Below are positions 21,797-48,100 of a stretch of 64,000 nucleotides of DNA, piece by piece. The DNA is taken from NCBI RefSeq assembly GCF_000478195.2, contig NZ_AUZM01000017.1, forward strand, positions 1-64,000, in the 5' to 3' direction. Every line of letters begins with the position of its first letter. Position 1 is the first letter of the stretch. Origin of the DNA: Lyngbya aestuarii BL J (GTDB lineage: Bacteria; Cyanobacteriota; Cyanobacteriia; Cyanobacteriales; Microcoleaceae). The notes below the pieces were generated by a model, which saw only the letters and a list, made by a program, of their open reading frames with translations, was not told where the DNA came from and ran no database searches. A program made the position numbers and the translations under genes.

Positions 21797-22762
21797 TTAA
21801 AGAGTTCTCCCGGAAACGCACACTACACGAAAACCGAGATTGTAGTGGCGGTTGTCGCGCCTATAATTGTAGCGGTAAGCGGAACGGCAGAAAGTAGAAA
21901 TGTAGTCCCAGGAACCGCCCCGCTGCGGAGAAGAATTTTCATTTCCATTTAACCAAACACTTCCATCAGTAGGCGCACCATGATAATTATCATGCCAAAC
22001 ATCAGCGCACCACTCGAAGACATTACCGTGCATATCATACAAACCAAAAGCATTGGGAGGAAAAATTCCCACATCTGTTGTTTCGTCACGATATATTCCT
22101 TCTGGTTCATCAGCATAAGTAGAAAGGCGATTATAGTTAGCTAACTCAGACGTTATAGTTTCGCCAAAATAGAAGGGAGTAGTTGTCCCGGCACGGGCAC
22201 CATATTCCCACTTGCTCTCACTGGGTAAACTATATTTTTTGCCTGTTCTAAGTGAGAGTTTCTGACAAAATTCTGTCGCTTCGTTCCAAGTTACTGTTTC
22301 TACAGGACGACCTGCATCTTGAAAGTTGGAGGGATTATTTCCCATCACTGCTTGCCATTGTGCTTGAGTGACTGGATATTTTCCCATGAAAAATTCTGGC
22401 ACGTCTACATTATGTTGCGGACCTTCATAATCATTTCTTCCTGCTTCTGTCTTTGGAGACCCCATGAGAAATCTACCTGCGGGTATTTTTACCATTTCTA
22501 GGGAGATTCTGTTGCCGAGGTTTTCTGTCATTACCTCTGCTTGATGTTGAGAGCGATTTATTATTTCTCCTTTTTCATTAACTGTGACTGTCTCAAATTT
22601 CTGAGTCGAGTTTGATGAATTTAATGAGTATGCTTTTGGCAGCAAAAATCTATGCCACCAATTTTTACTTAACGTTGCTGCGGCAAACCCACTTCCGGCT
22701 AAACCTGCTAATATCAATATTTGTCTTCTGGTTTTATTGGGTTGGGGTTGAGTTTTAGGCAT
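21797..22762 (-). CDS. FGE/sulfatase-modifying-fold protein with DGR-like variable C-terminus (copy 1)
   Basis: A 321-residue protein with an N-terminal signal anchor (QILILAGLAGSGFAA, preceded by a TRR) and a formylglycine-generating-enzyme (C-type-lectin-like) domain: EMVKIPAGRFLMGSP, FFMGKYPVTQAQWQAVMG, YSLPSESKWEYGARAG, FGLYDMHGNVFEWCADVW and RGGSW. The tail after RGGSW is rich in Tyr/Asn/Asp/His codons of the form xAC/xAT (YRYNYRRDNRHYN) before GFRVV, as in DGR variable regions. The start at 22762 is set by the near-identical copy 2; an upstream extension runs only through repeat DNA. True oxidase activity is doubtful; a binding role is more likely. Confidence 0.82.
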   Translation of the reverse strand: MPKTQPQPNKTRRQILILAGLAGSGFAAATLSKNWWHRFLLPKAYSLNSSNSTQKFETVTVNEKGEIINRSQHQAEVMTENLGNRISLEMVKIPAGRFLMGSPKTEAGRNDYEGPQHNVDVPEFFMGKYPVTQAQWQAVMGNNPSNFQDAGRPVETVTWNEATEFCQKLSLRTGKKYSLPSESKWEYGARAGTTTPFYFGETITSELANYNRLSTYADEPEGIYRDETTDVGIFPPNAFGLYDMHGNVFEWCADVWHDNYHGAPTDGSVWLNGNENSSPQRGGSWDYISTFCRSAYRYNYRRDNRHYNLGFRVVCVSGRTL

Positions 22763-22766
22763 GGAT

Positions 22767-23014
22767 GGAATTGTTGTTTTGGCGTTGAATAAAAAGTCAT
22801 GCGTATGCGCGAAAAACCCCCAACACTTAAATTGTATCACGACGGGAGAGCAGATGCAAGGCAATTTCTCTGTTTTTTTCGAGTGCTTCACACAATGATA
22901 AATGTGGAGATCAGAGATGATGGTGGAGGCGAGTGTATTTGTGGTTTTTCATCGCCTCTGTCTGGGTGCTTCACAGAATGAGATATCGGCAAAATTTGGG
23001 TTTTTGGGGTGAGG
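22767..23014. repeat. 248-bp direct repeat, copy A
   Basis: Nearly identical to 23052-23299 at a constant offset of 285 nt, with only a handful of differences (for example GCGCGAAAAA against GCGCAAACAA, and TATTTGTGG against TATTTCTGG). It ends 5 nt upstream of the start codon of FGE copy 1, so it is the leader of that gene. It also contains an internal pair GTGCTTCACA(C/G)AATGA. Confidence 0.93.
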
Positions 23015-23051
23015 GTGGCGATCGCTTTTTTCTACTATATGCCTTGAGTCG

Positions 23052-23299
23052 GGAATTGTTGTTTTGGCGTTGAATAAAAAGTCATGCGTATGCGCAAACA
23101 ACCCCCAACACTTAAATTGTATCACGACGGGAGAGCAGATGCAAGGCAATTTCTCTGTTTTTTTCGAGTGCTTCACACAATGATAAATGTGGAGATCAGA
23201 GATGATGGTGGAGGCGAGTGTATTTCTGGTTTTTCATCGCCTCTGTCTGGGTGCTTCACAGAATGAGATATCGGCAAAATTTGGGTTTTTGGGGTGAGG
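23052..23299. repeat. 248-bp direct repeat, copy B
   Basis: Second copy of the repeat at 22767-23014, separated from it by 37 nt that include a HIP1-type GCGATCGC. No FGE start lies next to it, so it looks like an orphan leader left after duplication and deletion. Short open frames inside both copies are identical by duplication and are not taken as genes. Confidence 0.93.
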
Positions 23300-23405
23300 T
23301 AATGCGGCTACTCTGAAAAAAATTTGACGCGCTTCGCGGGAAGGAAGGGAAAAGAGGAAGAAGAGGAAGAAAGGGTAAAGGGAAAAAGGGGAAAAGAGAA
23401 AAGGG
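23300..23405. other. Purine-rich spacer downstream of FGE copy 2
   Basis: Contains a GA-rich tract (about 23337-23402) made of GGAAG/GGGAAAAG units. The last part, reading AAAGGGAAAAAGGGGAAAAG, also occurs just downstream of FGE copy 1 (about 21768-21790), so the duplication included the 3' flank of the gene. Confidence 0.6.
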
Positions 23406-24377
23406 TTAAAGAGTTCTCCCGGCATCGCATACTACACGAAAACCATCTACTCTCAAGGAGATGGGGCCCGTATCGCCGATGCCGCGTCTGGCAGAACGGC
23501 AGTTATAAGGATTGCTGAACCAGCTACCACCCCGCTGCGGAGAAGAATTTTCATTTCCATTTAACCAAACACTTCCATCTGTAGGGGCACCTTGATAATT
23601 ATCATGCCAAACATCAGCGCACCACTCGAAGACATTACCGTGCATATCATACAAACCAAAAGCATTGGGTGGAAAAATTCCTACGTCTGTTGTTTCTTCA
23701 CGATATATTCCTGGCGGTGCATCAGCATAAGTAATATGGCGACCATCATAGTTAGCTAACTCAGACGTTATAGTTTCGCCAAAATAAAATGGTGTTGTTG
23801 TGCCTGCACGGGCACCATACTCCCACTTGCTCTCACTGGGTAAACTATATTTTTTGCCTGTTATTTGGGAGAGTTTCTGACAAAATTCTGTCGCGTCGTT
23901 CCAACTTACTTTTTCTACAGGACGACTTGCACCTTGAAAGTTGGAGGGATTATTTCCCATAACGACTTGCCATTGTGCTTGAGTGACTGGATATTTTCCC
24001 ATGAAAAATTCTGGCACGTCTACATAATGTTGCGGACTTTCATCATCTCTTCTCCCTGTTTCTGTTTCTGGAGAACCCATGAGAAATCTACCTGGGGGAA
24101 TTTTTACCATTTCTAGGGAGATTCTGTTGCCGAGGTTTTCTGTCATTACCTCTGCTTGATGTTGAGAGCGATTTATTATTTCTCCTTTTTCATTAACTGT
24201 GACTGTCTCAAATTTCTGAGTCGAGTTTGAGGAATTTAATGAGTATGCTTTTGGTAGCAAAAATCTATGCCACCAATTTTTACTTAACGTTGCTGCTGCA
24301 AACCCACTTCCTGCTAAACCTCCTAATATCAATATTTGTCTTCTGGTTTTATTGGGTTGGGGTTGAGTTTTAGGCAT
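23406..24377 (-). CDS. FGE/sulfatase-modifying-fold protein (copy 2)
   Basis: A 323-residue paralogue of the gene at 21797-22762, with the same signal anchor, domain order and motifs (KIPPGRFLMGSPE, YPVTQAQWQVVMG, FGLYDMHGNVFEW, RGGSW) and near identity for most of its length. After RGGSW the tails differ sharply: this copy reads SARRGIGDTGPISLRVDG, a conventional FGE ending, and is one codon longer before the shared GFRVVC and GRTL. It is upstream of copy 1 on the same strand. FGE proteins oxidise a Cys in sulfatases or serve as binding folds; no sulfatase is nearby. Confidence 0.85.
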   Translation of the reverse strand: MPKTQPQPNKTRRQILILGGLAGSGFAAATLSKNWWHRFLLPKAYSLNSSNSTQKFETVTVNEKGEIINRSQHQAEVMTENLGNRISLEMVKIPPGRFLMGSPETETGRRDDESPQHYVDVPEFFMGKYPVTQAQWQVVMGNNPSNFQGASRPVEKVSWNDATEFCQKLSQITGKKYSLPSESKWEYGARAGTTTPFYFGETITSELANYDGRHITYADAPPGIYREETTDVGIFPPNAFGLYDMHGNVFEWCADVWHDNYQGAPTDGSVWLNGNENSSPQRGGSWFSNPYNCRSARRGIGDTGPISLRVDGFRVVCDAGRTL

Positions 24378-45194: not shown

Positions 45195-48100
45195 TTAAAC
45201 AATTCCTTCAGAAGAATTAGTTGTCGTTCCAACAAAACCCTGGGAAACTTGATACTCAAAGGCTTGATAGAAGTTGATTTGAGTCACTTCTTTAACCCCG
45301 TAGAATTGAGTCAACTCTTGAGCATTTCCGCTGATGAATTTATCCAACTCTAACTCAGGATTTTCAGTGAGGAAATCATCGCTATAGGGGTCAATACCCG
45401 CTTCTAAACCTGCACCGAAAGCATACTCAACAACTTCACGTTTGCTGATTTCAGTGAGTTGTTTACTGTAGAAGTTGGTGAGAACATCTCCATTTTCTGC
45501 GGTGTATTCATCGAGGTCATAAGAGTCATCAGTTTCAAATCCATCTTCGAGGAATTGACCCTGCATTTCACCGATTAACTCATCATCTTCAACCTCTCCG
45601 CTAGCATCAGTATCGAGTTCTGCTTTGTTGTCCTCAATTAACTGAGCATTTTCTTGTTTGAACCACTCCGTATCTAACAGAGAAGAAGTGCTGACTCCTT
45701 GGGTTTCGGTGTAGTTGAAAGCTTCTTCGTAGTTGAAAGAGTAAACCTGTTCAACCCGATAGTTTTCAACCAGTTCCTCACCCAAACCGCGATAGTAATC
45801 GAGTTTAACAAACTCTTTCACATCCAAACCAATTTCGGTCGCAGTTTCGAGGATGAAGGTCTTGACAACGGAAGTATCGAGTTCGGCAATTTGTTCTTCA
45901 GGAATCTCGAAGTGTTCAGCGATTTCTGACTTATACTCTCCGATAAATCCATGAACATCAACCGCAGACATTTCTAAGTTATTCGCCAAGCCGTAAGTTG
46001 AAGCGTGTTCAACAATTTGACTTTCGCTGAGTTCATTAACCGAGACACCGTAATTGGCTTCTAAAACAGATTGGTGAGTGGATTTGTAGAACTCGATATC
46101 GACTTCTTCTTCCGCTACAAACTTGCTGTACAAACCACCGACAACCATCTCAGAAGGAAGTTCTGCGACTTGTTCAACCGCTATTTCAAACCGTTCAGCG
46201 AGTTCATGTTTAAATTCTTCCTTCAGGTAGTCTTCATCGACGTATTCTAACGGGTTAATTCCGTTTTTCCATCCCTTACCGAACATGAACTTCATTAAGT
46301 CTTTATCGGGGATAGAAGCAACATCAACATCTCCGTCTTCCATGTCGTCGGTGTCATCGATATTGTCACCTACGCCATCTTCCGACTCATCATCCATTTC
46401 CGACTCATCATCCATTTCCGACTCATCATCCATTTCATCGGAATCATCATCCATTTCCGACTCATCATCCATTTCCGACTCATCATCCATTTCCGACTCA
46501 TCATCCATTTCCGACTCATCATCCATTTCCGACTCATCATCCATTTCCGACTCATCATCCATTTCCGACTCATCATCCATTTCCGACTCATCATCCATTT
46601 CAGAATCATCATCCATTTCGTGATAGAACTCGGCGATTTGTTCAGCGTTATCTTTACGGTATTTATCGAGGTCGATAGCGCTGTATTGTACCTTCTCAAC
46701 TTCAAGGATTTCTTTGAAGTCGCGACTGAAGCCAATATCAATCACCTGTTTAACATCGAGTTGAGAGATATCGGTGACTTCAATTTCCAAGTCTGCAAAT
46801 AATTGAGTTTGTTGTTCAGCAGTTAACTCGGAGATTTGATATTTCAGGTAGTGAACATCGAGGTTAGCGAAAGTCTCATCGAAACCATCGAGAATTTCCG
46901 CATCCGTCAGAGGAACAATTTCTCCCTTGAGAACATCCTCTTCAGAGACTTCGTAGAATGTGGCAATTTCGGTAGTCTCGGTTGTACGAATATATTCGTA
47001 ATCAATTTCAGACTGAACCAGTTTGAGTTCGACACTTTGGAATGTTTCGCTTCCAGACAGTTGAACCAGTTGTTCAGCAGTAAGTGCTTCAACGCTAGCG
47101 ACTTCAACTTCGAGGACTGTGCTAATTTGTTCTAGGGTAACGGTTCCTGCTTCAACTAAGCCACTCAGTTGGAACTCAACGTAATTCTCGTCAACTTCAA
47201 CTGATTTAGCGACAGTCTCAATATCGAGTTGTTTGATGTATTCTAGAACATCCGCATCGGTAAAAGAAGTTTCTTCTGTTCCGTCATCGGTAGTTCCGTC
47301 ATCGGTAGTTCCGTCATCGGTAGTTCCGTCGTCGGTAGTTCCGTCATCGGTAGTTCCGTCGTCGGTAGTTCCGTCATCGGTAGTTCCGTCGTCGGTAGTT
47401 CCGTCATCGGTGGTTCCATCGTCAGTGGTTCCGTCGTCGGTAGTTCCGTCATCGGTTCCATCATCCTCGGTTGAACCATCATCGGTTCCATCATCATCGG
47501 TTGAACCATCATCAGTTGGAGGTTCAACAGTATCATCACCTTCATCACCGACTGAAGAATCATCGCCTTCGTCTTCAGCAACATCATCGCCTTCGTCTTC
47601 CGCAACAAACGTTTCAATTTCAGTGGCGAAAGTTTCGCTGAAGTATTCAATAACTTGTGCTTCGGTGATTTCAGCATCCGCTTCTAAATCAAGAGCGGTA
47701 GTAATATCTTCACCGTAGACAGAGGTAACAAACTCTAAGTCAAACCCGGTTGGAACCAGTTCAACAGTGGTTTCTTCGCCGAGAAGTTCCTCGAACTCGC
47801 TATCAGAAATTAACTCAGCAACTTGTTCGTCAGTCAGACTATCAATATCCTCGACAGTCGTTAACTCAACCTCTAGAATTTCCGCAACACTGGTGAGATT
47901 TTCTTCAGTGATAACTTGATTGAGTTGATAGCGAACGAAGTCATAATTAATGTCTTGTTCTCCATGTTCAACACTGACAACGTTCGACTCTGTGAACCAT
48001 TCTGTTGCTAATTCATCAGTGACTTCAGCTTCAGTAACTTCCGCATATTCAGCGATTGCCGTAACATTTGTTTCCGCTAAGAAATCGAGAATTTCAGTGT

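Follow-up and report, generated by a model that had tools for sequence, protein, structure and literature searches.

The C-terminal tail of one of two tandem FGE-fold genes of Lyngbya aestuarii BL J is, to judge by its codon pattern, very probably a variable region created by a diversity-generating retroelement (DGR). The original prediction had proposed a DGR origin, and both related variable regions and plasmid cassettes carrying the same type of template give it good support. The assembled genome contains no template, reverse transcriptase or Avd, so that the gene, here called copy 1, looks like an orphan or remote target.

Two tandem FGE-fold genes

Two FGE genes had been predicted on the minus strand of the window, the 64-kb stretch of DNA that was analysed, and the sequence places them there.

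22762-21797, minus strand: copy 1 gene, encoding a 321-aa FGE-fold protein (Pfam PF03781, E 1.2e-51)
24377-23406, minus strand: copy 2 gene, an FGE-fold paralogue of 323 aa (PF03781, E 1.7e-51)
22767-23299, no strand assigned: two 248-nt direct repeats, 99% identical and 285 apart, between both genes (read from the sequence)

The start of copy 1 is better set at the ATG at 22762, as read from the sequence, and PF03781 spans residues 88-313 of its product. The pair is flanked by genes that we read as ferredoxin-like and LD-carboxypeptidase-like. At the N-terminus both proteins carry KTRRQILILxGLAGSGFAAATLS, which reads as a putative twin-arginine export signal.

The two copies had been described as nearly identical. 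Their bodies are indeed alike, but the figure is only about 94% identity, with 51 aligned nucleotide differences over 279 codons when the tail is excluded. The changed codons comprise 22 synonymous and 23 non-synonymous ones. The differences come in patches next to stretches of full identity, and at the protein level copy 2 is 86% identical to copy 1.

What might such a protein do? The solved structures nearest to copy 1 are PvdO and Treponema denticola variable protein 1 (PDB 2y3c; second-best, E 1.1e-26). The latter is a DGR target whose C-terminal region is variable, as that of copy 1 would be, although it is distant in sequence. Alignment to 6s07 shows that the first cysteine of GGSFLCHESYC is replaced by tyrosine in copy 1 and only the second is retained. 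These two cysteines are presumably the catalytic pair of formylglycine-generating enzyme, and because one of them is missing we do not expect copy 1 to be such an enzyme. It may be a ligand-binding protein with a diversified binding loop, exported by the twin-arginine route. Confidence in the AlphaFold model of copy 1 is low over the C-terminal half (mean pLDDT 59.6), and the model was not used.

Codon signature of the tails

The variable-region signature of copy 1 is observed directly in the following segments.

21836-21907, minus strand: core of the probable copy 1 variable region, 24 codons between RGGSW and GFRVV (delimited by fixed columns and third-base identity)
21828-21835, minus strand: GGTTTTCG, its constant 3' border, common to the templates of plasmid cassettes (from alignments)

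The tail reads GAC TAC ATT TCT ACT TTC TGC CGT TCC GCT TAC CGC TAC AAT TAT AGG CGC GAC AAC CGC CAC TAC AAT CTC GGT TTT CG, in agreement with its earlier description as dominated by codons one first-base change away from AAC or AAT. The divergent core lies at the C-terminal end of an FGE-fold gene, between RGGSW and GFRVV, which is the placement of a DGR target. Of the 105 positions that can be aligned downstream of RGGSW, 33 differ between copies 1 and 2, and there are gaps in addition. Within the first five changeable codons, 9 of the 10 first and second positions differ and none of the 5 third positions; given the divergence of the bodies, at least 9 such differences in 10 would be expected with P = 1e-10. 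Differences confined to first and second positions are the opposite of what protein-coding drift produces.

For comparison we searched 99 genomes, comprising its own and 98 relatives, with no other genome of the same genus among them. A 114-base query from the copy 1 tail matched in 24 of the 99, its own included, and the related loci came mostly from Okeania and Trichodesmium. From the retrieved loci, 169 distinct tails of copy 1-like shape were gathered. One type, of 25 codons, is shared by 45 tails from Okeania, Trichodesmium and relatives, its own genome not counted. It consists of NNC/NNT codons with hypervariable, A-rich first and second positions, the other positions being nearly fixed. 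Copy 1 agrees with the fixed columns of these 45 regions at 34 of 39 positions; the five mismatches speak against a DGR origin and have to be put down to a divergent template. Synonymous resampling of the copy 1 protein gives a mean of 17.4 fixed-column mismatches as against the 5 observed, a test that, taking no account of common descent, makes the result look more significant than it is, and we prefer a codon contrast. Where copy 1 and its homologues encode different amino acids, third bases agree in 65% and 72% of cases in the two parts of the copy 1 tail and in 46% in the body, whereas first bases agree in 24-26% in the tail and 38% in the body. At same-residue codons, third-base identity of the body is often 70-80% in close homologues. 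The template expected for copy 1 would have the form GGTTCCTGG(AAC AAC AAT)TCT(AAT AAC)TGCCGTTCCGCT..CGC..AGGCGCGAC...GGTTTTCG.

The Okeania and Trichodesmium relatives hold dozens of variable regions of one type, and nearly all differences between their close pairs fall in hypervariable columns. In eight pairs with upstream sequences 91-98% identical, 142 hypervariable and 9 other positions differ; the P value of this pooled comparison is only indicative, as the pairs are non-independent and the columns were defined on the same data. No matching template repeat was found in the Okeania and Trichodesmium drafts searched.

Copy 2 had been thought to keep a conventional FGE tail and never to have been made from the template.

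23445-23519, minus strand: core of the copy 2 tail, 25 codons, of which the 5' part fits the variable-region pattern and codons 17-24 do not

Codons 1-16 follow the template pattern with two exceptions: codon 11, and codon 10, whose third base differs synonymously. Fixed columns are matched at 30 of 40 positions, and 7 of the 10 misses fall within codons 17-24. Third-base agreement at codons with a different amino acid is 62% in the first part of the tail and a body-like 48% in the second. The tail is thus not a conventional one: the codon signature is present in its 5' half and the departure lies in its last third. Nor is there support for excluding copy 2 as a former target, since this 5' half bears the codon signature of the copy 1 type. 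On these patterns we read copy 1 as a complete variable region and copy 2 as a partly replaced one.

Further tails of this kind occur in the same genome. At C9:90758-95607 a MoxR-like AAA ATPase, an 868-aa SAV_2336_NTERM-FGE protein and a 301-aa FGE protein stand in a row, and both FGE tails show the variable-region pattern. No reverse transcriptase or Avd was found in 9 kb around them. The layout resembles the DGR-linked ternary conflict loci of PMC10907252. A truncated fragment at C11:47132-47251 has lost its gene body and retains a variable-region-like tail of 25 codons (47133-47249), of a slightly different template type.

No cassette in the assembly, cassettes on plasmids elsewhere

Is the rest of the retroelement present elsewhere in the genome? 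The window holds no reverse transcriptase, Avd or template, as had been noted before. The assembly (6.86 Mb in 437 contigs, 99.96% completeness) likewise lacks a DGR reverse transcriptase: searched with a profile built from seven such enzymes, it yields 7e-10 at best, as compared with about 1e-200 in relatives that possess one. All matches to PF00078 (RVT_1) in the genome are of the group II intron or UG35 type; none of them has the DGR motif, and they were rejected as the missing enzyme. Among them is a 770-aa reverse transcriptase of the defence-associated UG35 class at C2:91026-93335 (PADLOC E 1.6e-243). Avd gave no match at E 0.01 in the genome. Two synthetic all-A templates match only both window genes and the one truncated fragment. 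The pattern of the template 3' end finds nothing in the genome, and viral contigs scanned for the template gave no match either. No downstream hairpin rises above shuffled sequences (z 0.74), which counts against a DGR origin; to our knowledge a downstream hairpin or cruciform is not needed in every DGR.

The original prediction had made copy 1 a remote target of a DGR elsewhere in the genome, and named the lack of a template repeat or DGR-type reverse transcriptase anywhere in the genome as grounds to discard it. Both are absent from the assembly, as is Avd, so the remote DGR is not confirmed and on its face the result speaks against the prediction. However, the assembly is a draft of 437 contigs; that no cassette was found in it neither cancels the sequence evidence for a DGR origin nor proves loss.

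Cassettes with this type of template exist on plasmids, complete in Nostoc, Anabaena and Fischerella and with an added insertion sequence in Microcystis. A synthetic all-A template matches plasmids of Nostoc, Microcystis, Anabaena and Fischerella, and in these four genera templates of the copy 1 type sit downstream of plasmid-borne reverse transcriptases. On Nostoc sp. UHCC 0926 pn2, Anabaena sp. 90 pANA02 and Fischerella sp. NIES-4106 plasmid3 the gene order is FGE-type targets, avd, reverse transcriptase, template. On Microcystis aeruginosa FD4 p1FD4 it is avd, insertion sequence, reverse transcriptase, template and a further FGE gene. The Fischerella genes are annotated as hypothetical except for the reverse transcriptase, and a small one is taken as avd from its sequence. 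Like the copy 1 locus, the plasmid cassettes have FGE-type targets, and their templates have the same codon pattern and 3' border. Unlike in the window, which holds targets alone, Avd, reverse transcriptase and template adjoin the targets. Several draft relatives carry DGR cassettes on contigs of 4-5 kb. In one relative the cassette is decaying (G006:C32): a kinase-FGE target, an Avd with a stop and a reverse transcriptase with four stops, with the template adjacent.

Such distant templates, used as proxies, and the related variable regions fit the copy 1 tail. Mismatches at the template adenines are in excess for copy 1 and for copy 2 too. By itself this simple test does not discriminate, because copy 2 also passes it, and it was dropped as proof.

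Origin of the tail

How could such a tail have arisen? In a DGR origin, copying of an A-rich template RNA would have introduced random errors at A, after which the error-bearing copy would have replaced the 3' end of the copy 1 gene, rewriting the C-terminal loop of an FGE/C-type-lectin-fold binding protein. Both tandem copies were probably targets once, and the 3' part of copy 2 would later have been replaced or have decayed.

Is the tail still being rewritten? We consider loss of the cassette and a frozen tail, inactive at present, somewhat likelier than survival of the cassette on unassembled or plasmid DNA; counted for loss are the lack of any cassette trace at very high completeness, the damaged copy 2 tail and the truncated third gene. 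A live system is nevertheless a serious, if less probable, alternative: a DGR may reside in the organism but outside the assembly, on a small repeat-bounded contig or a plasmid, with copy 1 as a remote target diversified in trans. Cassettes with the copy 1 type of template are plasmid-borne in four genera, those of several draft relatives lie on the short contigs mentioned above, close pairs in relatives vary almost only at hypervariable columns without a matching template in the drafts, and remote targets are reported to be common in cyanobacteria (PMC7517822). This is countered by the 99.96% completeness without a trace of reverse transcriptase, Avd or template, by a copy 2 tail whose 3' part no longer fits a template, and by the reduction of another variable region in the genome to a truncated gene fragment. 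In its broader form the idea would extend to all of a filamentous cyanobacterial lineage (this genome, Okeania and Trichodesmium), whose variable regions, dozens in number, share one template type: a DGR with template and enzyme beyond the sampled chromosomes, for instance on plasmids, would rewrite them in trans. We regard this as rather unlikely.

Could ordinary recombination have brought in the tails from other variable-region paralogues, with no retroelement acting at the locus itself? The genes are tandem, share repeats and diverge in patches, and the last third of the copy 2 tail resembles a replaced segment. Yet a donor tail would bear the DGR signature anyway, so that the DGR event is merely moved elsewhere, and no donor with the same tail is present in the genome; we give this explanation about one chance in five. 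FGE tails are generally loop-rich and variable, and PF03781 proteins are common in cyanobacteria, which would suit an ordinary tail of this family under diversifying selection, with no DGR involved. Selection on the protein, however, accounts neither for the conservation of third bases in changed codons, which exceeds that in the body, nor for the sharing of one and the same C or T between genera, and we consider this reading highly improbable. A DGR origin of the copy 1 tail remains the explanation that we prefer.

Even where an assembly lacks the retroelement, a DGR target can thus be recognised by its codon pattern and by comparison with its relatives. Copy 1 also adds a case for the fate of targets once the machinery is lost or has moved to a plasmid. 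If it is true that the machinery is plasmid-borne, a mobile module that can be lost would be diversifying chromosomal targets in these cyanobacteria, which form mats and blooms.

Remote and remnant cyanobacterial targets and incomplete DGR loci are already known, and copy 1 is a further example. Cyanobacterial remote variable proteins of the CLec/FGE fold, with paralogues dispersed away from the cassette, were described in BMC Genomics in 2020 (PMC7517822), among them a paralogue in Nostoc PCC 7120 that retains remnants of template homology but has no reverse transcriptase close by. Like copy 1, these proteins have a C-terminal variable region, the same fold and a position away from the cassette; unlike the assembly studied here, which holds no DGR, their genomes still contain them. 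Thiohalocapsa PB-PSB1 has incomplete DGR loci, and for some of its targets a perfect template match is lacking in the rest of the genome (PMC10907252). Its targets resemble copy 1 in standing without a complete cassette; there, long reads revealed intact variants.
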